21,294 nucleotides of DNA from a virus. The position numbers and the translations under genes are program-made. Where the stretch lies: IMG/VR virus record IMGVR_UViG_3300042924_007074, positions 1 to 21,294 of that record, one strand, 5' to 3'. Shown here piece by piece: positions 5,708 to 21,294 of the stretch; the first letter of the stretch is position 1; each line of letters starts with the position of its first letter. The notes beneath the pieces were generated by a model. That model saw nothing but the letters and a program-made list of their open reading frames with translations, searched no databases and was not told the DNA's origin.

Positions 5708-5739
5708 AAAAAAAGGTGACTCCATCAATGGGAGTCACC
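5708..5739 (-). terminator. Terminator that contains the RNA ligase stop codon
   Basis: GGTGACTCC (5715-5723) and GGAGTCACC (5731-5739) form a perfect 9-bp stem with a 7-base loop, followed on the minus strand by a T-run (5714-5708). The TGA of the ligase gene (5727-5725) lies in the loop, so the stem also encodes the last residues of the protein. Confidence 0.85.
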
Positions 5740-6846
5740 AACATTATTTTTCTCTCCGTAGATTAAGTAATCAGGATTGATCACTTTTGCTACTTTGTGA
5801 CGCTCACCACTCAAGCATTTCACAACAATACCTTCATGCGGAACTTTGGTACCTTCAATAAAGTTACCGAACACAAAACTATCTTGTATTTCTTTATCCC
5901 AAGGACCTGTGTATAACAAATCTACTTTAGGTAAATCTAACTCGTCGAACACACCTCTTTCAGTTATGAACTCGCGGTAAACACCATCAACCTCAACATC
6001 AAATCCTGCGAAACGAATATCAGTCAACCCATAGTCGTAATTCTTTTGGATTCCATGTCCGTAAATCTCACCGTATATAACAATACCTGATCCCAATCTT
6101 TCAGGAGTGTAGTATAGTTTTACATAATCCCATAATTTTTTTTGGATATCGTAATCTTCCGCAATAGTTCTCCACACATCAGTAGAGTAAAAACCTTGAG
6201 AAGTTGATCCTTTTTCAACATTGTGTGATCCGTAAACATATTCAAACTCAACCCATTCATTACCAAAGAATTTTCTAACACGATCCCAAATACTTAATCT
6301 TTTCTTTCTTACAATACCATAACGAGCGTTTGTTCCGTGTATTTTACGAGTGATAACAACCTTATCTTCTTCGGTGAATAACTCAGGAACATTCTTCAAG
6401 TTAGGAAACTTATAATAAACATGGAAGTTAGGATTTTGGTGGTATTTAACCTTTCTACCTCCAACACTCATTTCAACCATCTTAACTGGTGGTTCGTATT
6501 TGAAAACCTTAAGTAATTCCATACAATCAGATCCTTCATATCTGTATTTTTCAGGAACACTCCCTATTGGTATTATCAAACATTCAGAATAAACTCCACG
6601 AAGTTTCACGGTTCTTACTCGTTGTCCTTTTCTCAAGTAATTAGTCACACCCAAACCATCAGAAAGTTTCAATGGTATTACAGCGTCGGTAGTCGCAACA
6701 ACAACCAAATCAGTTACTTTATATTCACCTTTTTTAACTATTGCATTCCAACCACCAACTACCGCAAGTTCTATGTTATCTGCTCTTTCTATTGGTCTTA
6801 TCTCACCGATCACACCAACATAACATACACTATTTAAATTTTCCAT
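5725..6846 (-). CDS. RNA ligase with N-terminal OB-fold domain (Rnl5/DraRnl-like)
   Basis: A 373-residue ATP-dependent polynucleotide ligase. The N-terminal domain (about 5-95) looks like the OB-fold of Deinococcus RNA ligase: an ADNIELA segment, a Gly-Trp strand and LRGVYSECL. The nucleotidyltransferase domain follows. Motif I is KIHGTN with the adenylated lysine at K168, motif III FEYVYGSHN (201-209), motif IIIa IVIYGEIYG (255-263), motif IV EGIVVKC (338-344) and motif V around K351-K354. Known relatives seal nicks with RNA on the 3'-OH side. The gene follows the cREC gene by 6 bases, and its stop lies in a terminator loop. This context suggests repair of tRNA or mRNA broken during host defence. 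Confidence 0.88.
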   Translation of the reverse strand: MENLNSVCYVGVIGEIRPIERADNIELAVVGGWNAIVKKGEYKVTDLVVVATTDAVIPLKLSDGLGVTNYLRKGQRVRTVKLRGVYSECLIIPIGSVPEKYRYEGSDCMELLKVFKYEPPVKMVEMSVGGRKVKYHQNPNFHVYYKFPNLKNVPELFTEEDKVVITRKIHGTNARYGIVRKKRLSIWDRVRKFFGNEWVEFEYVYGSHNVEKGSTSQGFYSTDVWRTIAEDYDIQKKLWDYVKLYYTPERLGSGIVIYGEIYGHGIQKNYDYGLTDIRFAGFDVEVDGVYREFITERGVFDELDLPKVDLLYTGPWDKEIQDSFVFGNFIEGTKVPHEGIVVKCLSGERHKVAKVINPDYLIYGEKNNVGDSH

Positions 6847-7894: not shown

Positions 7895-8112
7895 CGAAGA
7901 ACATATTGGTGAATTATTATCACTAATTTTCCTTCAACTATGGCTCTATCGTTTTTTATTTCAATATTCATCCAACCCAAATCCTCTTTGAGTCTATTTG
8001 CTTGAACTTGAACTTCGTGTTCAGCATCTTCTTTAGTTTTGAAGAATCCAAAATATGTTTCGCAAGATCCTGTCTTATCACAAACTCCGTAAATTATCTC
8101 TCTATTTTTCAT
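7891..8112 (-). CDS. Small conserved protein, paralogue of the gene at 5181-5426
   Basis: A 73-residue soluble protein of unknown function. It shares IYGVCDKT, YFGFFK followed by DA, and the C-terminal VIIIH-x-x-VLR with the product of 5181-5426. The helix between is Gln and Lys rich. Two copies in one short genome segment point to a duplicated phage family. Its start overlaps the end of the basic-protein gene by 11 bases and its stop overlaps the membrane gene as ATGA. Confidence 0.75.
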   Translation of the reverse strand: MKNREIIYGVCDKTGSCETYFGFFKTKEDAEHEVQVQANRLKEDLGWMNIEIKNDRAIVEGKLVIIIHQYVLR

Positions 8113-8308
8113 CTTTTAATCTTTTTTTTGATTCTTCTTTTAAACCTCTTAATAAACCTTTTTTATATGTAATATAATCTTCCTCGTATTTTGATGGCCA
8201 AGCCACAAGATAAGAATTATTATTATCTTTTGGATAAGTATAAAAATCTTTTTCTAATCTTTTTTTTGTTTTTCTTGGTAATCTAAACTTTTTCTTTTTT
8301 TGAGCCAT
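8102..8308 (-). CDS. Small basic phage protein
   Basis: A 68-residue, strongly basic protein. The start at ATG 8308 (MAQKKKKFRLPRK) is preferred over one 9 codons earlier because it lies near the end of the upstream gene; the overlap is 26 bases. The N-terminal KKKKF-x-LPRKTKKRLEKD, then YPKDNNNSYLVAWPS and an EDY helix, follow a pattern I recall in small phage proteins of unknown role. The charge suggests nucleic-acid binding. Confidence 0.65.
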   Translation of the reverse strand: MAQKKKKFRLPRKTKKRLEKDFYTYPKDNNNSYLVAWPSKYEEDYITYKKGLLRGLKEESKKRLKDEK

Positions 8309-8465
8309 AACATTCAAACTTTTTATCTTTAACATTCCACAAATCTTTTACCCCCTCTGTCATATGACAATTGTGTCTTTTTCCAGTCCTACGACCGAAA
8401 TCAACAATCATATCATTATGACGATTACGAATTAAGTGTGGACATTCTTTACAGGGGGTTTTCAC
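8283..8465 (-). CDS. Small Cys/His protein, possible DUF6283-like
   Basis: A 60-residue protein starting at GTG 8465. It has C5, C8 and H10 near the N-terminus, then H32-x-C33-H34 and C52, which could bind one metal ion. The arrangement (CxxCPH, a basic loop, NCH, a late Cys) resembles small phage proteins of the DUF6283 type; that match is from memory. GTG is favoured as start because TACCTTTG lies exactly 4 bases upstream, the same geometry as two ATG genes in this window. It heads the operon that runs through cREC to the RNA ligase. Confidence 0.65.
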   Translation of the reverse strand: MKTPCKECPHLIRNRHNDMIVDFGRRTGKRHNCHMTEGVKDLWNVKDKKFECYGSKKEKV

Positions 8466-8469
8466 CTTA

Positions 8470-8477
8470 CAAAGGTA
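8470..8477 (-). promoter_or_regulatory. Bacteroidetes -7 element for the cREC/ligase operon
   Basis: TACCTTTG reads on the minus strand at 8477-8470 and ends 4 bases before the GTG start. The upstream bases TTTCT are shared with the promoter at 14019-14026. No clear TTG -33 element is seen at the expected distance, so strength or sigma dependence may differ. Confidence 0.55.
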
Positions 8478-8507
8478 AGAAATTAATTTGAATGGGTGAA
8501 AATTATT

Positions 8508-8711
8508 TCAATTAAAAATTCCATTATTTAGTAAATCACAAAGAAATGCTGTTTCATAATAAATAAATAAAGATATTGAAACTAAAATTAAGACCACTAA
8601 AGAAACTCCAACTAAAAAATTTAGTTTTATAATTTCGAAAAATAACTCGACAAGATCTCTGATACAATAAACCATTATGATAATCAAAAATCCAACGAGT
8701 ATTATTTCCAT
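8508..8711 (-). CDS. Small membrane protein, two helices
   Basis: A 67-residue protein with two long hydrophobic segments (about residues 2-17 and 32-53) separated by an acidic/aromatic helix (DLVELFFEIIKLNF). It starts one base after the stop of the T9SS cargo gene, so it is surely cotranscribed with it. No family recognised. A helper of the exported protein or an independent lysis factor are both possible. Confidence 0.6.
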   Translation of the reverse strand: MEIILVGFLIIIMVYCIRDLVELFFEIIKLNFLVGVSLVVLILVSISLFIYYETAFLCDLLNNGIFN

Positions 8712-8712
8712 A

Positions 8713-11172
8713 TTACTTGATTATTTGTTTTAAGGTGTTAGTTGAAAACTCGTTTGATGTTACTTTTATATAATACACTCCTGACACAATATTTAACATA
8801 TCAAGATTATATAAATTAATACCCCCTTTTATTTCAATTTCTTTTTCTAAAACAATTGAGCCTTTTGAATCTTGAATTTCAATTTTACCATTTCCGATCA
8901 TGTTTTTATTGTTCAATACAACTTGAAAAGATCCTGAACTTGGATTTGGAAATGTTGAAAAATATCCTTTTGAATTTCCATTACAAATAACATTGATCGG
9001 TCCGTATTCATCGCTAACACCATCAATATCATATTGTATTAATTTATAATAATTGTTTCCGTCAATTGCATTTTCATCTTTTGTTGTATAACTTAATTCT
9101 TGAGTTGAGTTGCCAGCAGAATTCAAGGTTGTTAATTTAGACCAATTTTCACCATCTCTTGATTTAAGAACATCAAAGTGAGATGTGTTATGTTCAGTAG
9201 CAGTTCTCCAATTTAATGTGATAAGATTATCATTACAAGTTCCGTCAAATGATAATAGTTCAACAGGTAATGCTCCATTTGTTATTATATTAAAAAATCT
9301 AACTTGAGTTCCACAGTTTGATGAATTTGAAACTGTGACTCTAACAGATCCATTGGTTGTTGTTTGAGGCCAATAAAAAGATATTGATGGTGTATTAGAG
9401 TTTGGTATGTTATTCCATAAAGGTGCGGTAACTGACTCTGTGTATGCCCATTGATATGTTGCGTTTGGGACAGGTGTAATAGAATATGTTTCTTGAGTTC
9501 CCGCAATAATTGTGTTGTTCCCCGACACTGTGGAAACAAATCCAACTGAAGGGTTTACGGTTATTGTTGTTGATGTCGCATTCGAACACCCATTTGATGA
9601 CACCGTTAGTGTATATGATTGATTACTTGTTGGTGATGCAAAAGGACTTGGTGCATTTGGATTTGTTAGTCCTGTAGATGGAGACCATGAGTATGTTACT
9701 GGTGATCCTCCAGTATTCCCCACTGATGAAATCAATTGTGTGTTAGATCCCGAACAAATTGTGTTTGTTACTGAACTTACTGAAACTGTTGGTGTTGGAT
9801 TCACCGTTATGGTTGTTGATGCACATCCTGAACTAAATAAACTTGAATTATAATTTCTAGCAAAATAAGTAGTGGTGGTAGTAGGTGAAACCGTGATGGA
9901 ATTTCCAACTCCGATTTGAGTTACCCCACATCCATTAATATACCAATAAACCGTTCCCACTCCACCATTAGCGGTTAATGTTGTTGATGTTCCGTTACAA
10001 ACAATATTTGAAGTTGCAGATATTGAAGTTGGGTTAGGGGGTGGTGGTGTTGAACAAATCAATCCAACCTGAAAGGCGCTACTTGAGTTGTATCCATGAA
10101 CTAATATATAGTAGTTTAGTCCAACGGTTGATGTCCATTGATAAGATGCTGATGATGTGGCACATGTTGGCCCATAATCATCGTTACCACCAACGCAAGT
10201 TAAAGATGAACAATTAGGACCACTAAAAACCGAGATCTTACTATCCCAAGCAGTATTACAAAGATAAGCCGTCATAATCTGTCCATTTCCAGGAACCATA
10301 TACCAAACTCCAGGTTGGGTTTGTGAGACATTACAAAAACCATTTTCTCCATTTCCGCTATTAGTGGAATTGACCGTAGTTCCGGATACAATTTGACCAC
10401 ATGAGATAGAAGTTGCGTTACAAACTAAATCATTTACAGGTGCAGCAGGGGCTGAACAAGAAAGACATTCAATCGTTGTCGTTCCACAATTAATTGCAGT
10501 CCCACATGATGAATTAGTATTGTAATGAATATAATAAGTCCCTGATATTGGTGCGGTCCATGTTAAAGGTGAAAAACCAGTAGCAACCACAGTTCCGTTA
10601 TAGGATGAATGTCTTACAGTAATGTAGCCACCTAAATTATATGTAGATCTATATTGTCCTCCCGATACAATATTAAAAATGGTATTATATTCTTCTTGAT
10701 AAGTGCAAGTGCTAATTGTATGAACACCAGGTATAGATGGTGCAGTTAATGATCCATAGGCGTATAAATTAACACAACCTCCTCCTCCACCACCAGAACA
10801 CGAAGCAACACAAGTATAACCACCTGTAGTTGCGGTTCCTGTTACGGGTTGTATTGTATTTAGTAGAATTGTTCCTGTGTTATTTCTTATTTGAACTCTC
10901 ATTTCTGAAGGAAAAGTTCCTGATGTTGTTCTCCATACTCTAATGATTTGACCTGATGATGCTGTGAAATTAAAAATTAATGGTCCATAACCACTTGTGA
11001 AGGTTGATCCAAGATTAGTTAATACAGTTATTCCATTTACACTAACGGAAACTCTTCCTCCATTCCATCCATCACCCCAAGTATCGGTTAAATAGATTGA
11101 ATGAGTGCAAGATTGTGATAAAGTGACGAAACTTGTAAAAAAAACAAAAATCGATAATAATAAATTCTTCAT
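8713..11172 (-). CDS. Secreted multidomain protein with T9SS type A sorting domain
   Basis: An 819-residue exported protein. Residues 1-21 form a Sec signal peptide (hydrophobic core LLLSIFVFFTSFV). Next come Cys-paired beta domains: a WGDGWNGG domain (about 22-123), a GGGGGG linker (127-132), a second domain ending in GTYYIHYNTNSSCGT, and a third starting NDLVCNATSISCGQ. Then follow Ig/PKD-like repeats rich in Thr and Ser, and an ALPVELLSF domain. The last 80 residues (FPNPSSG at 741-747, then SGVYYIKV) form the C-terminal signal recognised by the Bacteroidetes type IX system, which is cleaved as the cargo passes the outer membrane. The protein should end up on the host surface or outside the cell. 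It is visibly less AT-rich than its neighbours, suggesting capture from a host. Confidence 0.88.
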   Translation of the reverse strand: MKNLLLSIFVFFTSFVTLSQSCTHSIYLTDTWGDGWNGGRVSVSVNGITVLTNLGSTFTSGYGPLIFNFTASSGQIIRVWRTTSGTFPSEMRVQIRNNTGTILLNTIQPVTGTATTGGYTCVASCSGGGGGGCVNLYAYGSLTAPSIPGVHTISTCTYQEEYNTIFNIVSGGQYRSTYNLGGYITVRHSSYNGTVVATGFSPLTWTAPISGTYYIHYNTNSSCGTAINCGTTTIECLSCSAPAAPVNDLVCNATSISCGQIVSGTTVNSTNSGNGENGFCNVSQTQPGVWYMVPGNGQIMTAYLCNTAWDSKISVFSGPNCSSLTCVGGNDDYGPTCATSSASYQWTSTVGLNYYILVHGYNSSSAFQVGLICSTPPPPNPTSISATSNIVCNGTSTTLTANGGVGTVYWYINGCGVTQIGVGNSITVSPTTTTTYFARNYNSSLFSSGCASTTITVNPTPTVSVSSVTNTICSGSNTQLISSVGNTGGSPVTYSWSPSTGLTNPNAPSPFASPTSNQSYTLTVSSNGCSNATSTTITVNPSVGFVSTVSGNNTIIAGTQETYSITPVPNATYQWAYTESVTAPLWNNIPNSNTPSISFYWPQTTTNGSVRVTVSNSSNCGTQVRFFNIITNGALPVELLSFDGTCNDNLITLNWRTATEHNTSHFDVLKSRDGENWSKLTTLNSAGNSTQELSYTTKDENAIDGNNYYKLIQYDIDGVSDEYGPINVICNGNSKGYFSTFPNPSSGSFQVVLNNKNMIGNGKIEIQDSKGSIVLEKEIEIKGGINLYNLDMLNIVSGVYYIKVTSNEFSTNTLKQIIK

Positions 11173-11336
11173 TGCGTATAAAATTAAAACACATTAATTA
11201 TTATACTCACTTGAAGAATCCTAATTGGAAACCCCCATATACCATGGGCAGGTCGAGGTACTATAATAAATACGAAGAACTATTTGATTGTTGTATATCA
11301 ATTATGGTGTATTGAGCAAACTCCCATTTTGATTTA
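11173..11336. other. Noncoding gap upstream of the T9SS gene
   Basis: A 164-base gap, the longest in the window. On the minus strand it holds a short hairpin CCCAT-GGTAT-ATGGG followed by GGTTT (around 11231-11245), a weak terminator candidate for the RlpA gene. Nearer the T9SS start is TATAATAATT, which resembles a -10 box, but no TAnnTTTG is present. A 17-codon open stretch ending FQLGFFK has no credible start and may be a gene remnant. Confidence 0.4.
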
Positions 11337-11744
11337 TTATTTTCTAATTTCAACAGTATCAACCGGTGTTAGTGTGACATTTATCACACCTCTTTTTAAA
11401 AAATTAAGTTGTTTTGCAGTACCATAACTAAGATCAATTATGAATTTAGAACTTTTTGGAAGTCGATCATTAACTTTAACATAACAAACTGAGTCGTTAT
11501 GATGATTAGTTACTTTTAGTATTGTTCCGAACTTGAAGTGTTTGTGAGCTGCGGTTAGACTATCGGCATGAAATCTTTCCCCTGAAGCTGTCATCCTACC
11601 TGTCCAATGCTGTCCGTAGTAAGTAGCAATTCCTTTATATTCGGGTAATTTTAAAATAAAAGATAATGTCAGAAATGGTAAGAATACCAATAATTTATTT
11701 AAGATTCCAATTTTTGTATTTTGTTTCGATTTTTCTTTTTCCAT
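11337..11744 (-). CDS. RlpA-like lytic transglycosylase with N-terminal membrane anchor
   Basis: A 135-residue protein. After a basic N-terminus, residues 16-31 (LNKLLVFLPFLTLSFI) form a signal anchor or signal peptide. The rest is one double-psi beta-barrel of the RlpA family: GIATYYG (38-44), TASGE (52-56), TAAH (64-67) and VNDR (91-94). The His and Asp correspond to the catalytic pair of bacterial RlpA, which cleaves peptidoglycan glycan strands lacking stem peptides. The SPOR domain of host RlpA is absent. In a phage this is likely a lysis or wall-remodelling enzyme reaching the periplasm by its own signal. The start overlaps the metalloprotease gene by 50 bases; no later Met precedes the domain. 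Confidence 0.8.
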   Translation of the reverse strand: MEKEKSKQNTKIGILNKLLVFLPFLTLSFILKLPEYKGIATYYGQHWTGRMTASGERFHADSLTAAHKHFKFGTILKVTNHHNDSVCYVKVNDRLPKSSKFIIDLSYGTAKQLNFLKRGVINVTLTPVDTVEIRK

Positions 11745-12945
11745 ATTTTTTTTCCATAATTTGTTGGTGAAGATCCCAATTTAGAATCGATTCACTAACT
11801 TGTTCGTCGTCTTTTGCCATTGCGTAAAGTTTAGAAATTTTCTTTAACATTTTGTTTGCAACATAATTAAATTCTTCAAATTCATCTTCAAAAAACTTAG
11901 TTGGATTTTTTTCATATCTCATAGTTCGTGATAAAAACTTTTGTCTAATCTCATTTGTTTTTTGAAGTTGTTTCATTTTTTCTTCAAATCCTGGTGGTAT
12001 CATTCCAAGTTGTGCTCCAAATGTTAAAAAGTCATCCATAGGACCTTGAGTCATTTGCATAAAAAAATCCATTCTGTTATTTACTAAATCAATATAAACA
12101 ACTTCTAATACTTTGTTTATTTTTTCATCAATAGACATGTCAGATGGGTCTTCACCGATGTGTTCTAAAAGAGCATCCAATCTATCTTCTTGTTGTTTTA
12201 AATCTTGTATAAAATTATCAAAAGTGTAGTTTTTTATTCTTAATAATTCTTTATAAACTCTATTGTCCTCTAAAAAGTCTTTGAACTGTGATTTTGTAAT
12301 GTTCTTTCTTTTCATTGAGTATGCAACCTCTGTTGGTCTAACAAGGTTTTCAATTGCATGAATGTAATACATAAATCTATAAAAAACTCTATCGATTGCC
12401 GGTATTGCAAAATTACCTTTTTGTTGTGTTGCCTGATAAACAGCATCAGGACCCATACGACTATATTCTTTAGCTTGTTTATCGTATTTATGTTTTATCT
12501 CATGAGCCAAAGCCGATACATTTTCATCTCTTTCCTCTTCCATTTTAGCGATAAGTTCTTCTGGTTTCCAATTGTCACCAACAGCAAAAGTAATTGTTAA
12601 ATCTAAAGTTGTTGATGGTTGAGTTTCTTTCATATACACATCCCTATTGAACCCAAAGGCTCCCGCCATCCCCATCGAGATAATGTCTAATACACCTTCT
12701 TCACCATCAACAGTTTCTATATTAACTTCAAGGTTATATGAATCAATTTTGATCTTTTTCTTATCACCTAATTCTAATTCGATATCACCATCAAATTCAT
12801 ATTCATCTTTAATACTATCTATTGATTTGATGTCTTTTTCAACGATATCGTATAGCGTATCAGCAGCTTCTAAAATGTTATCAGGAACCCCTAAAGCTTC
12901 AGTTATTAGTCTTAATTGACTTTCGGTGATAATAATATTTTTCAT
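11695..12945 (-). CDS. Putative zinc metalloprotease with N-terminal packaging-like tag
   Basis: A 416-residue protein. The N-terminus MKNIIITESQLRLITEALGV resembles that of the small PG-binding protein at 16766-17086 and contains an (I)-T-E-A site like T4 capsid-targeting tags, which are cut after (L/I)-x-E. An HEIKH zinc motif lies at 148-152 within ALAHEIKHKYD, and a possible third ligand is E206 in RPTEVAY. The remainder is helical and charged. Proteins of this layout occur in large phages, to my memory, without known substrates. If packaged, it could process head proteins or act in the new host cell. A 14-base motif identical to one upstream of 17086 lies 2 bases before the ATG. Confidence 0.65.
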   Translation of the reverse strand: MKNIIITESQLRLITEALGVPDNILEAADTLYDIVEKDIKSIDSIKDEYEFDGDIELELGDKKKIKIDSYNLEVNIETVDGEEGVLDIISMGMAGAFGFNRDVYMKETQPSTTLDLTITFAVGDNWKPEELIAKMEEERDENVSALAHEIKHKYDKQAKEYSRMGPDAVYQATQQKGNFAIPAIDRVFYRFMYYIHAIENLVRPTEVAYSMKRKNITKSQFKDFLEDNRVYKELLRIKNYTFDNFIQDLKQQEDRLDALLEHIGEDPSDMSIDEKINKVLEVVYIDLVNNRMDFFMQMTQGPMDDFLTFGAQLGMIPPGFEEKMKQLQKTNEIRQKFLSRTMRYEKNPTKFFEDEFEEFNYVANKMLKKISKLYAMAKDDEQVSESILNWDLHQQIMEKKYGKRKIETKYKNWNLK

Positions 12946-12947
12946 AA

Positions 12948-12961
12948 TAATAAATATATTG
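12948..12961 (-). promoter_or_regulatory. Shared 14-base motif upstream of a tagged gene (copy 1)
   Basis: The minus strand reads CAATATATTTATTA, identical to 17099-17112. Both copies stand just before genes whose products begin MK(K/N)xI(I/L)xE. It could be a phage-specific late promoter. AT-richness makes a chance match possible. Confidence 0.35.
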
Positions 12962-12971
12962 GTGTTATGGT

Positions 12972-13628
12972 TTATCCCACAACTCCAACCAAATCATCAA
13001 GGTGGTGATCGTTACTCAAATCAGATCCAATTTCACGACGATCCATCATGTGAACTATCTCAGTTATTTTGTATGGATACATATTGTTACCATCCATACC
13101 AACATCCAATCGTTTTCCGTTACCCCATTTATTTTGAGCGGACAAATGAACATGTCCATGAAGATGGATTACACCTTTATTTAATCCGTGCCAACTTTGG
13201 AGTGGGTAATGACATAAAACAAAATCTACATCACAAATATTAACCTCAAGATAATGTTGAGCAGATAAAAATCTGTTTTGGATTTCTTGTCTATTTTTTA
13301 AAATGTTCTGATCGTGATTACCCAAGACTAAGTGAATGTTTTTACAAACTAAACGATCTAGAAATTGTTCAATTCTTTCAAACCCACCAAAAGCAAGATC
13401 ACCTAAATGAATCAAAGTATCATTTGGGCCAACTTTTGAGTTTATGTTGTTCACAATTGTAACATCCATTTCATCAAGATCTCGGAAGTCTCGAGTTGAG
13501 TTTACGGGAATATCACCTTCTTGTGTTCGCCAGTTGGTAACACCTCGACAGATATTTTTGTGATGGTAGTGAGTATCAGATGTGATCCACACTACACCAG
13601 TTGTAAGTAATTTATCAAAGTTTTTCAT
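12972..13628 (-). CDS. Calcineurin-type metallophosphoesterase
   Basis: A 218-residue dinuclear metallophosphoesterase. Metal-binding motifs appear in order: SDTH (D18, H20), GDLAF (D77), GNHD (N104, H105), a CHYPLQSW segment (H140) and GHVH (158-161). The family hydrolyses phosphomonoesters or diesters, including 3'-phosphate and 2',3'-cyclic phosphate RNA ends in bacterial Pnkp. Its ATG overlaps the stop of the upstream P-loop kinase gene as ATGA, so kinase and phosphatase are made together. That pairing suggests an end-healing pair. The substrate is inferred from context; many phages carry similar phosphoesterases of unknown role. Confidence 0.85.
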   Translation of the reverse strand: MKNFDKLLTTGVVWITSDTHYHHKNICRGVTNWRTQEGDIPVNSTRDFRDLDEMDVTIVNNINSKVGPNDTLIHLGDLAFGGFERIEQFLDRLVCKNIHLVLGNHDQNILKNRQEIQNRFLSAQHYLEVNICDVDFVLCHYPLQSWHGLNKGVIHLHGHVHLSAQNKWGNGKRLDVGMDGNNMYPYKITEIVHMMDRREIGSDLSNDHHLDDLVGVVG

Positions 13629-14014
13629 AATTTGATTTCAAAACGATTTTTCATTTGTTCTAATTTGTCTTCAGGAACTCCGTGTTCACTACTCCCTCCG
13701 TGTCTGTTTTCGATTACGATTGAAAATACCTTATACCCGTATTTTTTTGCCATCTCAAAATATGTTTCCATTTCCCATTCTTGAGTAAATGTGTTTGAAA
13801 CGACAATTTTTGGTATTTCTTTTATCATATCCATATAAACCATATCGTGACACCACTCGTGAGCCCATTTAATTTTTGAGCCATCAAATTTATATTCACC
13901 GTTCCCATCTATAAAAAACATATCGGCTTCATAATGTTCTCCACCCAAAGTTTTTGCAAATGTTGATTTACCACTACCTGGTATTCCTCTCACTAAATAA
14001 ATCATTTTTTCCAT
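13625..14014 (-). CDS. P-loop kinase, polynucleotide-kinase-like (N4BP2L1 type)
   Basis: A 129-residue kinase. Walker A is GIPGSGKST (10-18). EADMFF (29-34) has an acidic residue at D31 that could activate the substrate hydroxyl. The GEYKFD and AHEWC segments and VVSNTFT (71-77) follow the pattern of AAA_33 / N4BP2-like 5'-OH polynucleotide kinases. The C-terminal HGVP segment precedes a likely lid with R124. The known reaction of close families is ATP-dependent phosphorylation of 5'-OH nucleic acid. It overlaps the phosphoesterase gene by ATGA. The start is fixed by TACCTTTG lying 4 bases upstream, implying a leaderless transcript. Confidence 0.8.
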   Translation of the reverse strand: MEKMIYLVRGIPGSGKSTFAKTLGGEHYEADMFFIDGNGEYKFDGSKIKWAHEWCHDMVYMDMIKEIPKIVVSNTFTQEWEMETYFEMAKKYGYKVFSIVIENRHGGSSEHGVPEDKLEQMKNRFEIKL

Positions 14015-14070: not shown

Positions 14071-15309
14071 TTAACTTCCTATCATTTTGTAATAAAGTTC
14101 TGATGATAATTTATTAGAAACTGGTAAAGGGGTTTCTATTCCTGCAGTACCGCTTGTACCTTGTGTTCCACTTGTACCTGAGGTTCCTGATAAACTGCTT
14201 GACCCACTTCTTGGACATTTTCCTGTATCATCAATCGCTTTCATTACTGTTCCAAAATCAAATGTGTATCTGTTACCACTTATTCCACTAACGAGAGGTG
14301 TGTTTGGATCTGGAACTTCAGGGACTTCAGGGACTTCAGGATCATTAGTTTTACCACTACAGAATTGTTTTTTCAAAACTGAACCTAACAATTTATTTTT
14401 AAACCATTTTTTTGCATAAATGAAGTCATAATCTTTATAATTCTCACATGAAAAACCTAATCTTGTAAATCCTGTTTTTAATTCTTTTTTGGCAAATGCA
14501 CCATTTTTACTTTTTTTCCATACAGTATCTTTTGGCGTACTAAAAACGGGTATATCTTTCACAATTGGATAAAAAGTTTGAACATTTTTTTGTTTGTATT
14601 CTGAACCGCCGCCCTTAACATTATTATCCGAAGATCCTTCAAGTACAACACCATTCTTTTTAGCCTCATCCTTTACCGTAAGAAATCCCACACCCAATAA
14701 AATCGCTAAAGCCCACAGATTTTTTTTTGAGATTGTTCTAGCACCGCTCGATGTTGTATTTATTATACCTTTTTGTTCAAATGCGGTTAAAAAACTTTTA
14801 AAATCACCTATTCTAGAAATTCCAGTCTTGTTCAGAACTGCAATTTCATTTTTGACAAAAGGGGTTATTTCACTTTTAGCGGCTGTGGATAAACTTGCCA
14901 CCTCATACTTAGTTGTGTTTGGTAAAACCATCAATTCGTTTTTACCAGTTCCTACTGCAGTTTTTTGGGCATTTTTGAGTTTTTTTGTGAATCTTCGATT
15001 TTTTCTTAGTTGTTGAAAAATTCCTGCTCTTTCAGACGATGTTAAATTACCTCTTATTTTTTTTTGAACTCTTTTAAGTAATTCCTCAATTGAAGACTTT
15101 TGAACCTTAGCAAAATCATCTACTTTAGTCCCTGCAGTTTTCATTGTCCTGATAGCGGCTTTAATTACATCGTCAATTTCTGTTTTCAATATATTTGCGA
15201 TAGCAGTCGAAACCACATTTCTTATTGGTACTGCCTCCGTTAAAAGTTTACCGTACATTATCTCTTGTGATCTTTGTATTTCTTGTATAGTTTTTTTGTC
15301 TAAATCCAT
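14071..15309 (-). CDS. Putative virion/ejected protein with collagen-like tail
   Basis: A 412-residue protein of no recognised family. The N-terminus reads LLTEAVP at 22-28, an (L)-x-E site like those cut by T4-type prohead protease. Residues 30-190 are helical and basic. A single hydrophobic segment (NLWALAILLGVGFLTV, about 197-212) is followed by a polar domain with W264, W302 and several Cys. Then come a PEVPEVPEVP repeat (324-333) and a GTSGTSGTQGTSGTAG collagen-like run (375-390). Low-complexity tails of this kind are common in structural phage proteins. It lies 14 bases downstream of the long PG-binding protein gene and ends at a terminator. Confidence 0.6.
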   Translation of the reverse strand: MDLDKKTIQEIQRSQEIMYGKLLTEAVPIRNVVSTAIANILKTEIDDVIKAAIRTMKTAGTKVDDFAKVQKSSIEELLKRVQKKIRGNLTSSERAGIFQQLRKNRRFTKKLKNAQKTAVGTGKNELMVLPNTTKYEVASLSTAAKSEITPFVKNEIAVLNKTGISRIGDFKSFLTAFEQKGIINTTSSGARTISKKNLWALAILLGVGFLTVKDEAKKNGVVLEGSSDNNVKGGGSEYKQKNVQTFYPIVKDIPVFSTPKDTVWKKSKNGAFAKKELKTGFTRLGFSCENYKDYDFIYAKKWFKNKLLGSVLKKQFCSGKTNDPEVPEVPEVPDPNTPLVSGISGNRYTFDFGTVMKAIDDTGKCPRSGSSSLSGTSGTSGTQGTSGTAGIETPLPVSNKLSSELYYKMIGS

Positions 15310-15323
15310 TTTGTTTTTATTAA

Positions 15324-16769
15324 TTATTTTTTATCTTTCAAACTTTCAATCCATTTTTCAAAAGCAAACATTTTCTCACCAAATTTTTTCATGCTCTCTG
15401 AACCAACCATTTTTTCAAACTTTGTCGGTTGGAGTTCAACGCCTAAAGCAAATGCCAACTTTGGGTCAATTTTTCCTGTGACAGAAATAGATTTATCTTT
15501 TTTATTATAATACTGTTGGAGTTGTTTTACAGCGTTTTCTGTGTTTTTATCAAAAACTCCATTAACCGGTCCTGAATAATTTAGTTGGCTAAATCCACCA
15601 TATTCTTCAGGTATTTCTTTAATTGCCAATAAACCTTCTTGAGCGGCTTTTACTTTTTCTCCTCTATCACCAAGTTTGAGTTCAGAATCTTTCATAAATT
15701 CTGCAATTGCAACCCCACCAATAGTTCCTGCCAATAATCTTCCAACACTTACTTTAGCCGTTTGGCCAACCAACGATTTTATCCAAACCAAAGCTTTGTC
15801 AATTACATTATCGAAAAAAGAAAATATTTTATTAAAAAAAGACATAACATTTTTACCAAATAATTTTGTTAAAAAGTTTTTTGCTTGTCCCACAAACCCT
15901 TTTATTTTTGGAAATGCTGTGACTAATTTTTGAAGGAGGGACCTCACAGGCCCTTTTCCAAGTTGCTTAGTTCCTGACTTGACGGCCATTTTCAGTGCGA
16001 GTTTTGGACCTGCAGCTGCTGCAGATGTAAACAAAAGTGCAATTATATCCGTAATTAATAATACAAATGGCATTTTTGCTCTTTCAGGTTCTGCAGGATC
16101 GTAGTCACCTGTTCCTATTTCATAGACATCCAAAAGAACTATCAATGTCCATACAATTTTCATTACAACAACTCCTGGGGTCACCGAAATAATTAAATCA
16201 AAAATGATACCACCATATGACTGTAAATTTCTTCTTATCCATCTTAATAAAGGTAAAACTCCTTTTTTTAATATAGGAACTATTATTTTTTGTGCAACCG
16301 CCTTTAATCCTTTACCAATTGCAGTTATGGCCGAAGTGGCGACATTTTTTATTCCACTCCAAACTTGTCCAGTTTTTTTCTTCAACCAATCCCAAAATCC
16401 TTCTATTATAATTTCAACTCCATTCCAAGATTTAGAAATTTCTCTTTCTAAAATTAACTTGTTTGAGGACTCTTTAATTAAACCCAATTTTGGTCCAAAT
16501 TCTTTGTCCCATTCTTTTAAAACCAACTTGCAATTATCAGGACTAATTACTTTAAAAAATTCATACAAAACTTTTTTTGGTTCTAATTTATATTCAATTA
16601 AAGAAATTAAACCGTTACTATATTGATATTTAGCATTGTTTTTTACAACCTTCAGAATTTCAGGTATCATGTTCATATTAAATTTGACAAATTTTTTCTC
16701 TTCACAAACATAAAAACCTTTAGATGTGAATAAATATTTTCCGTCTAATGTTGGCCCTAATATTTTCAT
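15324..16769 (-). CDS. Long hydrophobic protein with C-terminal peptidoglycan-binding domain
   Basis: A 481-residue protein. Residues 1-125 are polar. From about 126 to 355 there are amphipathic and hydrophobic helices, including GIIFDLIISVTPGVVVM with MKIVWTLIVLL (187-213), MPFVLLITDIIALLF (233-247) and LLAGTIGGVAIAEF (345-358). A peptidoglycan-binding domain of type 1 occupies about 365-443, with the LGDRGEKV and GVFDKNTENAVKQLQ signatures and TGKID. Membrane-active helices plus a wall-binding domain fit a virion protein ejected to cross the cell envelope, or a tail-tip protein; this is an inference. It is coupled by ATGA to the small PG-binding gene upstream. Confidence 0.65.
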   Translation of the reverse strand: MKILGPTLDGKYLFTSKGFYVCEEKKFVKFNMNMIPEILKVVKNNAKYQYSNGLISLIEYKLEPKKVLYEFFKVISPDNCKLVLKEWDKEFGPKLGLIKESSNKLILEREISKSWNGVEIIIEGFWDWLKKKTGQVWSGIKNVATSAITAIGKGLKAVAQKIIVPILKKGVLPLLRWIRRNLQSYGGIIFDLIISVTPGVVVMKIVWTLIVLLDVYEIGTGDYDPAEPERAKMPFVLLITDIIALLFTSAAAAGPKLALKMAVKSGTKQLGKGPVRSLLQKLVTAFPKIKGFVGQAKNFLTKLFGKNVMSFFNKIFSFFDNVIDKALVWIKSLVGQTAKVSVGRLLAGTIGGVAIAEFMKDSELKLGDRGEKVKAAQEGLLAIKEIPEEYGGFSQLNYSGPVNGVFDKNTENAVKQLQQYYNKKDKSISVTGKIDPKLAFALGVELQPTKFEKMVGSESMKKFGEKMFAFEKWIESLKDKK

Positions 16770-17086
16770 GTTAAAGTTTCTGCGTTTGGATTCAATAGGA
16801 GATCCCCTTCATTTCCTTGATCTTCTTCATCATCGTCTGAGGCCAATTTTGAATCAAATTTATAATTAGTATATTTTTCTATAGCCGCTTTTGTTTTTTC
16901 CCCACAAATCCCATCAACTCCATCTTCATTTGGTCCTGAGTTACCTAAGTCTGCTTGGAAGCAATCTTTCAATCTTTGTTGAACTTGCGTAATTTCATCT
17001 TTAGTTTGTTCATTCAGAATTGCCGTTTCTACAATAAAATTTTTGATTCTACTATATTGTTTCTCACTTAAGATTAATTTTTTCAT
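16766..17086 (-). CDS. Small peptidoglycan-binding-like protein with packaging-like tag
   Basis: A 106-residue protein, start chosen at ATG 17086 (MKKLILSEKQYSRIKNF). An upstream ATG at 17119 would add 11 residues unlike the sister protein at 11695-12945, which begins MKNIIITESQ. An AILNEQ site at 22-27 resembles a prohead-protease cut. Residues 33-72 (QVQQRLKDCF, then DGVDGICGEKTKAAIEKY) match a short peptidoglycan-binding fold with two Cys that could pair. The tail is acidic and disordered. It is the first gene of the cassette and overlaps the next by ATGA. A 14-base motif shared with the metalloprotease gene lies 12 bases upstream. Confidence 0.65.
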   Translation of the reverse strand: MKKLILSEKQYSRIKNFIVETAILNEQTKDEITQVQQRLKDCFQADLGNSGPNEDGVDGICGEKTKAAIEKYTNYKFDSKLASDDDEEDQGNEGDLLLNPNAETLT

Positions 17087-17098
17087 AAATGTTTTTCT

Positions 17099-17112
17099 TA
17101 ATAAATATATTG
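17099..17112 (-). promoter_or_regulatory. Shared 14-base motif upstream of a tagged gene (copy 2)
   Basis: Minus-strand CAATATATTTATTA, identical to 12948-12961, ends 12 bases before the ATG at 17086. It lies immediately downstream of the terminator at 17118-17144, where a new promoter would be expected. Confidence 0.4.
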
Positions 17113-17117
17113 AAAAC

Positions 17118-17144
17118 AAAAAAAGGTGAGAATAAATCCCACCT
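17118..17144 (-). terminator. Terminator after the 17220-17495 gene
   Basis: AGGTGAGA (17124-17131) pairs with TCCCACCT (17137-17144), 8 bp with one G-U wobble and a 5-base loop, followed on the minus strand by a T-run (17124-17118). It lies about 75 bases after the stop of the upstream gene. Confidence 0.75.
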
Positions 17145-20254: not shown

Positions 20255-20432
20255 GACTTATATATTTTACTGTATTTCCTAAACTAAACCCTAAATCCCA
20301 AGCATCAATTACTTTGATTGCTTCGTAAGGGTTATTTTCTCCTCCGTAATGTTGAGGATGATTTACTTGTTCTTTTTGTGGTGAAGGACATTGACAAAGT
20401 CCAGTACCACCACATACACATTGTTTATCCAT
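20163..20432 (-). CDS. DUF3310 protein with N-terminal Cys cluster
   Basis: An 89-residue protein. Residues 24-88 form a DUF3310 domain, seen in many phages and sometimes called nucleotide-kinase-like: VNHPQHYGG, IKVIDAWDLGFSLGN, VKYISRAGKK and EDLRKALWYL are all characteristic. Its biochemical role is not known to me. A short N-terminal extension carries C5, C7, C13 and C15 in a C-x-C-x5-C-x-C arrangement, a probable metal site. The ATG overlaps the glutamine synthetase stop as TAATG, so it is translated after that enzyme. Confidence 0.88.
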   Translation of the reverse strand: MDKQCVCGGTGLCQCPSPQKEQVNHPQHYGGENNPYEAIKVIDAWDLGFSLGNTVKYISRAGKKGKDKELEDLRKALWYLQHHIQTLEK

Positions 20433-21294
20433 TACTCTTCTCTATATTCTTTTAATAATTCTTCATTGGACATAGTTCCATACTTTTCACTAAGACCGTT
20501 TAAATTAACATCTTTATTGATCATAGTTTTTGTATCATAAAGTAGTTGAGCTACATATAATGAATTAACGATCTCACGAACAATTTTATATGGATCTGCA
20601 TTTGATCCTGGTCTTCTATCTTCAACATATCCTTTCCATTCTTTTGCTGTGTCCTGTGGAACTCTAATTGATGCTCCACGATCAGATACACCCCAACTAA
20701 ATTTATCAATTGCCTGTGTCTCATATTCACCAGTCAAACGAAGGTTATTGTTTGATCCGTAAGCTTTGATATGATCTTCGTGTCTTGATTCAAATGCGTT
20801 AAATAGTGACATGAAGTATTCTTCGTTACCATCAAATCTCATCATGTCTGTTGAGAAGTTTGTGTGAAGTCCTGATCCATTCCACTCTCCGTGTGTGATT
20901 GGTTTTGGGTGAAGTTCAATGTGATAACCGTACTTCTCAGCAATCTTAAATAGGAAATATCTAGTCATCCAAAGATCATCTCCGCCTTGTAATTTTCCTT
21001 TTGAAAAAACTTGGTATTCCCACTGACCTAAAGCAACCTCAGCATTTGTTCCTGTAATATCAATACCATAGTTTAAACACATATTCAAATGTTCCTCAAC
21101 AAATGGACGACCAACAACATTATGACCTACACCACAGTAGTACTCACCTTGTCCTTTAAGGATGTTTCTCTTGTGACCCAAAATGTTTCCATTAACTTCT
21201 TCTCGAATAAAATATTCTTGTTCAAAACCAAACCAAAGATCTTCAAATCCTTCACCAATACTAGATCTTTTATTCGATTCATGGGGTGTTCCAT
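20432..21294 (-). CDS. Glutamine synthetase, eukaryotic type (GSII), 5' end outside window
   Basis: The frame runs from the window edge to TAA at 20432, giving 287 residues; the N-terminal beta-grasp part is missing, and an apparent TTG start at 21181 is internal. Visible motifs are those of the GSII family: FGFEQEYF (near window residue 25, catalytic Glu), a CGVGHN-like segment, GTNAEVALGQWEYQV, a GDDLWMTRY helix, PKPITHGEWNGSGLHTNFST (ammonia and ATP site) and DRGASIRVPQ with EDRRPGSNADPY. The enzyme makes glutamine from glutamate, ammonia and ATP. All conserved active-site segments appear intact, so it is likely functional. GSII is typical of eukaryotes and some bacteria. In a phage it would be an auxiliary gene feeding nucleotide and amino-acid synthesis. 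Confidence 0.9.
   Translation of the reverse strand, partial: GTPHESNKRSSIGEGFEDLWFGFEQEYFIREEVNGNILGHKRNILKGQGEYYCGVGHNVVGRPFVEEHLNMCLNYGIDITGTNAEVALGQWEYQVFSKGKLQGGDDLWMTRYFLFKIAEKYGYHIELHPKPITHGEWNGSGLHTNFSTDMMRFDGNEEYFMSLFNAFESRHEDHIKAYGSNNNLRLTGEYETQAIDKFSWGVSDRGASIRVPQDTAKEWKGYVEDRRPGSNADPYKIVREIVNSLYVAQLLYDTKTMINKDVNLNGLSEKYGTMSNEELLKEYREE

Follow-up and report, generated by a model that had tools for sequence, protein, structure and literature searches.

A predicted type IX secretion cargo gene behind a conserved leader with three-way-junction covariation in a likely jumbo phage fragment

Why would a phage carry a gene for a protein addressed to the type IX secretion system (T9SS) of its host, and what would control such a gene? 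A gene for an 819-aa protein in an uncultured virus sequence raises this question. The window, here the whole stretch of DNA that was analysed, is the entire IMG/VR record of 21,294 bp. Its own flanks beyond 21,294 bp are therefore unreadable, and the phage context was judged through relatives. Phage genes with T9SS sorting domains have been described before. Cryophage genes with T9SS type A sorting domains include an endoglucanase, a GH39 gene and a PA14 gene in variable islands (PMC7468147). Bellas et al. 2020 regard the Cryophage case as a unique occurrence and suggest hijacking of a host system, possibly for superinfection exclusion (PMC7468147). The crAss-BACON cluster 2 ORFs carry T9SS sorting domains near head genes in Bacteroidota phages (PMC6949934).

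The cargo gene and the parts of its product are as follows.

8713..11172, (-) strand: T9SS cargo gene, 819 aa, with Sec-like signal, beta-sandwich modules, fn3-like module and type A C-terminal sorting domain (CTD)
11113..11172, (-) strand: predicted signal peptide, residues 1-20, by a charge/hydrophobicity heuristic
9796..10038, (-) strand: Ig_7 (PF19081), residues 379-459, Pfam 32 bits, cut-off 27.3
8983..9282, (-) strand: fn3-like module ahead of the CTD, about residues 631-730, own delimitation from the alignment
8719..8952, (-) strand: type A CTD, PF18962/TIGR04183, by Pfam and NCBIfam

Residues 741-817 match PF18962 at 31.5 bits (Pfam cut-off 27), and residues 741-819, the extreme C-terminus, match TIGR04183 at 30.2 bits (NCBIfam cut-off 23). 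The N-terminus, MKNLLLSIFVFFTSFVTLSQ, is Sec-signal-like by the charge/hydrophobicity heuristic only. The sequence-only reading had proposed a Sec signal and a T9SS type A CTD; the CTD is confirmed over curated cut-offs, and the N-terminus resembles a signal by the heuristic. A PDB sequence search gave a single weak match, to an Endonuclease I chain (residues 740-818, E 0.021). The sole INPHARED matches were to four records of uncultured phages, 462-642 kb long, and extended over some 80-120 residues. The match to the phage tail family phrog_3995 is weak (E 0.0029). Structure prediction gave two models, both of low quality (pLDDT 66.5 and 65.9), and the first Foldseek matches from a poor model are fragments of Aureispira GhpA at TM-scores of 0.20 or less. 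Across 12 pairs of the window with its relatives, dN/dS of the CTD is 0.01-0.47, with dS above 1 in several pairs. By this measure the CTD of the cargo family is under purifying selection; together with the viral loci that encode relatives, this speaks for more than a chance occurrence.

Genes of phage type surround the cargo gene in the window.

5725..6846, (-) strand: phage RNA ligase (phrog_968), profile match
11337..11744, (-) strand: RlpA-like DPBB protein, PF03330 at 58.1 bits, neighbour often retained in relatives
11695..12945, (-) strand: 416-aa protein without a family match and without an INPHARED match, neighbour often retained in relatives
12972..14014, (-) strand: phosphoesterase (phrog_547) and P-loop protein (phrog_2071), phage families, often retained neighbours

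The flanking genes also include a DNA methyltransferase (phrog_67), and phrog_2071 is an ATPase with a kinase-like P-loop. A glutamine-synthetase-like phage gene at 20432-21292 (-) is cut by the record end (PF00120, 72.1 bits) and is retained in many relatives. The proteins encoded at 14071-17119 (-) have weak tape-measure and peptidoglycan-binding matches and are possibly virion or lysis proteins. Profile searches identified no gp23-type capsid or terminase gene within the 21-kb window.

Relatives of the 819-aa protein are encoded at 31 viral loci in a viral contig scan with the protein as query, and a scan with the family alignment gave 50 viral loci, with L095-L098 among them weak. In 25 of the 31 loci the cargo gene has the neighbours that surround it in the window; the exceptions are L004, L008, L009, L022, L023 and L024. 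Local gene order is shuffled at L016 and L028. Both a terminase gene and a capsid gene of T4 gp23 type lie on the contigs of L015 (272,576 bp) and L016 (291,867 bp), and portal-like and scaffold-like ORFs, as judged by eye, adjoin the capsid/terminase genes in those relatives. A gp23-type capsid scored over the cut-off in 4 of 14 records, as did a terminase, and two related records (G010, G011) combine gp23-type capsid, terminase and a length above 200 kb, as in T4-like jumbo phages. The terminase of the L016 phage has 1,793 phage record matches, all below 60% identity; among the 12 matches listed, the Bacteroidota isolate is Flavobacterium phage immuto (27%). Since the same neighbourhood sits in large contigs with T4-type virion genes, the window most likely represents part of a jumbo T4-like phage genome.

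The proposal that the gene sits among phage-type genes is borne out by the family matches of the flanking genes and by the T4-type contigs of the relatives. The same contigs speak, via relatives only, against chromosomal flanks. A search for viral homologues, which the sequence-only reading had called for, returned the 31 loci; among untruncated complete family members, 16 of 27 carry a long CTD. Taken together, the T9SS-cargo architecture and the phage origin are well supported computationally.

The rest of the family ends differently. Complete members range from 613 to 1,729 aa. By our own patterns, the 28 distinct complete members behind the leader described below comprise 16 with a PNP-type CTD, 11 with a short tail and one truncated protein (L086), so that the untruncated ones divide into 16/27 with a long CTD and 11/27 with a short tail. 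In the long-CTD group, L004, L011 and L012 fall below the Pfam cut-off, and L171 has a PNP-type end without a TIGR04183 match. The short tail (for example KRINLAGQEVNENATGIIIEIYEDGSIKRIIR) comes after the same fn3-like module as the long CTD. It has about 35 residues, with stretches that resemble motifs B, D and E by eye in alignments A2 and A3, and three strands in a low-confidence structure model. No NCBIfam or Pfam model recognised it in the proteins tested. Comparison of short tails with long CTDs by hhalign gave a probability of 0.4% and no profile similarity, and for this reason the tails are not filed as short-CTD members.

In Prevotella intermedia, short CTDs of 43-55 residues retain motifs B, D and E and undergo cleavage and glycosylation; short alongside long CTDs are reported only from this species (PMC11969387). 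Deletions in HBP35 showed that surface export needs the final 22 residues, in which motifs D and E lie (PMC3120885). The phage tails resemble the P. intermedia CTDs as putative short C-terminal signals after the last structured domain. They differ in length, in their occurrence in phages and a Flavobacteriia genus, and in matching no curated model.

The best homologue among cellular proteins has 1,200 aa and comes from a Flavobacteriia MAG (locus L042, genome G018). Identity to this chromosomal homologue is 61-64%, and 61% over the best segment, and its surroundings look by eye like housekeeping genes. The gene at 7962-11564 of L042 lacks the first half of the CTD, with TIGR04183 positions 23-72 only at 16.3 bits, through deletion or assembly error. 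In the scan for cellular homologues, 34 of 36 loci were labelled Bacteroidota. Homologous segments at L058 and L062 lie in MAGs labelled Neisseriaceae and Gracilibacteria in which no SprA was found, and they may reflect binning error or transfer. Of 61 genomes in the G018 genus, 46 contain a match to the phage protein at E<=1e-10. Those ranking next after G018 match it mostly via the C-terminal region of fn3-like module and CTD, about residues 603-819, and the fn3-like module is common to many proteins of this genus.

Of 41 genomes searched in the same genus, 13 have the short tail (E<=0.01), on signal-peptide-like proteins. The genus was picked for its best homologue and model A3 contains its members, so these counts are biased as a host prediction. 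An mnmA-like gene adjoins 4 of 9 short-tail loci examined by eye. Loci L106-L112 of the Flavobacteriia genus encode signal-peptide-like proteins of about 350 aa with the short tail, some as tandem pairs, and no curated model matches the tail. Across the phylum, the tail was found in 7 of 198 genomes, mostly in part; a larger model found it in 2 of 296 genomes, G018 included (E<=0.001). A search without positive control gave 0 of 299 genomes in the phylum of the MAG labelled Neisseriaceae. SprA was present in 10/10 chosen short-tail genomes of the likely host genus and in 0/2 others. The domains of the cargo protein are of Flavobacteriia type, and the host is probably a T9SS-bearing Flavobacteriales lineage. 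As the genus was chosen by its homologue, it is a host lead and not proof.

Upstream of the cargo gene lie two further features.

11206..11257, (-) strand: 52-nt leader, predicted three-way junction, ending 33 nt ahead of the ATG, from flank alignment, pattern scans and RNAalifold
11265..11272, (-) strand: TATTTATT, putative promoter-like site ahead of the leader

When 5' flanks were aligned, about 52 nt before the start codon were nearly invariant in 17 of 17 loci, five of them other gene contexts, and the remaining flank was variable. The window has no second copy at three mismatches or fewer. Pattern scans found the leader in 68 IMG/VR contigs besides the window, with one match each: 41 and 22 from the scans, L196, and four with a variant stem (L298, L300, L301, L302). 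Some of the 68 contigs are the same or near-same virus, and 110 loci reduce to 34 unique cores. A scan with a shorter pattern (116 stretches) was excluded from every leader count. Of 26 new loci in a relaxed scan, 17 were rejected as chance (L182, L183, L185-L187, L189-L192, L195, L197, L200, L202, L203, L205-L207), as was L299 in the variant-stem scan. BLAST of INPHARED gave one good match (E 1e-8), in the 634,780-bp phage LR745206.1, where the copy scores 73.4 bits with the leader model; four other matches had E 5. When two jumbo records were searched as end-to-end tiles, each had one strong match (82.8 and 77.7 bits), and the next best scored 17.2 bits.

The genes behind the leader encode 34 distinct complete proteins, of which 16 have a PNP-type CTD at the end, 16 the short tail and two neither (the truncated L086, and L201). 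With L297, L298, L300, L301 and L302 added, 37 of 39 carry a CTD or short tail; the C-termini of L298, L300, L301 and L302 were judged by eye, that of L297 by TIGR04183 and the others by our own patterns. The count leaves out 25 distinct proteins truncated where a contig or locus stops, and four loci whose available sequence has no ORF. N-termini of leader genes are signal-peptide-like in 38/38 distinct proteins by the heuristic. N-terminal parts unlike that of the window protein were seen by eye at L132, L176, L175, L184, L188, L201 and L297, and the L194 and L204 proteins share only a central domain with it. In the 635-kb phage, the leader gene (L297, 4070-4420) encodes 117 aa that are mostly signal peptide, a short stretch and a CTD (TIGR04183, 24.2 bits, cut-off 23). 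The leader gene at L201 (8363-10078) has a complete, seemingly intact 572-aa product in which no CTD was found.

T9SS-type genes elsewhere in leader-bearing phages, at L037, L038 and L036 (LR745206.1), have no leader in the stretches searched. L037 (8641-10551, (-) strand) and L038 (3580-5490, (+) strand) each hold a second T9SS-type cargo gene with a cohesin-like domain and a CTD at 48 bits, about 10 kb away in the phages behind L016 and L028. In bacteria, 240 related genomes searched with stricter Infernal filters gave no convincing copy and one weak match (L267), where only the 3' strand is alike and lies, by eye, inside apparent coding sequence. A scan of 86 bacterial genomes gave one one-mismatch match (L181), which was read as chance, with the rest of the leader absent. 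No copy was found in 65 loci that include bacterial homologues.

RNAalifold predicts a three-way junction from the 34 unique copies and from a 37-row set. The helices are P0 (CUC/GAG), P1 (RACC/GGUU), P2 (CCCRU/AUGGG) and P3 (UCY-loop-RGA). P1 and P2 form one arm, and the strand UUCUUCAAG between P3 and P0 is nearly invariant. In the 37 rows, double compensatory changes occur in 5 of 15 pairs and are spread over all three helices (P0, P2, P3): one pair of P0 (UA to AU, L300), one of P2 (UA to AU, six rows) and all three of P3. Ten of the 15 pairs have no double change, the compensatory cells include related rows, and the innermost P3 pair fails in 9 of 37 rows. Paired cells amount to 98.2%, against 94.2% in shuffled alignments (0 of 500 reach the observed value) and 31-57% when slid. 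Core lengths are 50, 51, 52, 53, 54, 55 and 70 nt, the last at L171 with a very long loop, and length changes are confined to hairpin loops. Alignment A9 excludes L171, which is present in A7, and the unaligned L302. Six copies folded singly have ordinary energies (z -0.17 to 1.01); for the window and L008 the minimum-energy structure contains the arms of the model, and for the other four it differs. By compensatory covariation the leader classes as a structured RNA, and we read it as a putative cis-acting control RNA for phage-made T9SS cargo.

No Rfam family reaches its gathering score: the window leader drew nothing, and the region of the L300 copy drew four sub-threshold matches, which were taken as chance. 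Pairing of UUCUUCAAG with tRNA was rejected: among 146 tRNAs found by ARAGORN, the lone complementary stretch lies outside the anticodon loop. Literature searches showed no title on the leader element; the candidate-RNA catalogues PMC8040213 and PMC2864571 lie outside this comparison, and a prior description is possible.

A TATTTAT-like site lies 13-18 nt ahead of the leader in 31 of 37 unique upstreams. In one jumbo record, TATTTAT[AT] occurs 84 times within 120 nt upstream of same-strand ORFs, against 12.8 expected and 40 on the other strand, and in a second 91 times, against 14.1 expected and 54 on the other strand. In these two jumbo phages (L268-L296) the motif peaks 10-30 nt upstream of ORFs. 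It is a candidate phage promoter class, which would make the leader an added 5'-UTR. Two other promoter scans were uninformative: the Bacteroidota-type promoter TATNTTTG has 11 sites in the window against 10.4 expected, and a generic sigma-70 scan of 8000-13000 gave 31 against 25.7 in shuffles.

The conserved stretch could instead act as DNA, as a promoter or operator or as a recombination site for swapping of cargo cassettes. Its constancy while flanks and downstream genes change, the TATTTAT-like site close ahead and the ordinary folding energies all fit this reading. Against it, double compensatory changes occur in all three helices and length varies only in the loops; against a recombination site in particular, the two records searched end to end hold no second copy. 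We consider action as DNA rather unlikely. Translation of the stretch, as an upstream ORF or an N-terminal extension (MVDGGF..., MEDGGFLKRFFK...), is much less probable still. In several copies a short frame begins at an ATG or GTG within P2, and in L011 and L297 it continues into the gene. But the frame is not kept across core lengths of 50-55 and 70 nt, and the L193, L198, L204, L298, L300 and L301 rows have AAG in place of the ATG, so an upstream ORF is unlikely.

Other readings concern the protein. It might be a virion component, a fibre or particle adhesin, with signal and CTD left over from a host gene. Virions often bear Ig-like modules, and the weak phrog_3995 match would agree, but by the heuristic every one of the 38 distinct leader genes begins with a signal-peptide-like N-terminus and the dN/dS of the CTD is low; we regard a virion role as improbable. 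The sequence-only reading offered recent capture of a host adhesin as its alternative. That such a capture has no role in the phage, or that the gene belongs to a misbinned bacterial fragment, is scarcely credible. The L042 homologue in a Flavobacteriia MAG and the similar C-terminal modules in most genomes of its genus would suit it. It is strongly disfavoured by the neighbourhood retained in phage contigs, and also opposed by the purifying selection and by a leader without a convincing copy in the bacterial genomes searched. With its neighbours retained in 25 of 31 viral loci, the cargo gene is not a recent capture.

The explanation that we favour, by a modest measure, combines a cargo slot, a cis-acting structured leader and a T9SS-exported surface protein. 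In large T4-like phages, probably of T9SS-bearing Flavobacteriales, the locus would be a cargo slot for one surface protein. Transcription would start from a phage TATTTAT-type promoter just ahead of the 52-nt leader. The leader would fold as a three-way junction with UUCUUCAAG as its nearly invariant single strand, and would set in cis the translation or stability of the mRNA behind it. The product would enter the periplasm by Sec. Its C-terminal signal, a long type A CTD or a short tail, would then pass it on to the host T9SS, which would display or release it, as the architecture suggests. Given a body of predicted beta-sandwich modules, the likeliest use is to coat the infected cell or serve it as an adhesin, altering what attaches, although this particular role is doubtful. 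Candidate effects on the cell are a block to superinfection, altered adhesion, defence against grazing and a change in gliding. A wider proposal, to which we give slightly less than an even chance, is that an undescribed class of RNA, confined to phages, marks a cargo slot, possibly a single one in each genome, for interchangeable T9SS cargo. It would span T4-like jumbo phages and the 635-kb phage and control the timing of the surface change, possibly by sensing a host factor or metabolite.

Because phage T9SS cargo is already in print (PMC7468147, PMC6949934), the cargo part adds a new family to a kind already known. Relative to that published cargo, the conserved leader is new. The window shares a phage-encoded T9SS type A sorting domain with Cryophage and differs in its beta-module protein, retained neighbourhood, jumbo T4-like phages, structured leader and alternative short tail (PMC7468147). 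It shares T9SS sorting domains in Bacteroidota phages with crAss-BACON cluster 2, in which phages and domains are other and the leader is not mentioned in the available text (PMC6949934). Like riboswitches and other cis-regulatory leader RNAs, the leader is a compact conserved structure 5' of one functional gene class; unlike the catalogued ones, it has no accepted Rfam match and was found here only in phages. The cargo protein would be, like the Aureispira GhpA grappling hook (PDB 9flw), a long chain of beta-sandwich modules on a Bacteroidota surface, a likeness of general architecture only, the model being poor and the TM-score 0.20.

The sequence-only reading had noted neither the leader at 11206-11257 nor the short C-terminus that some relatives have instead of a long one. 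Phage T9SS cargo was formerly known from variable islands or beside crAss-like head genes, and here it is a retained feature of large phages. The cargo is accompanied by what appears to be its own RNA control element, and the reason for phage remodelling of the Bacteroidota surface becomes testable. The leader provides a sequence handle for T9SS cargo genes without N-terminal homology, and the short C-terminal tails are of a kind that the curated models applied here overlook. Should the leader prove to be a sensor, it would represent a regulatory RNA specific to phages, and its class of targets would be defined.
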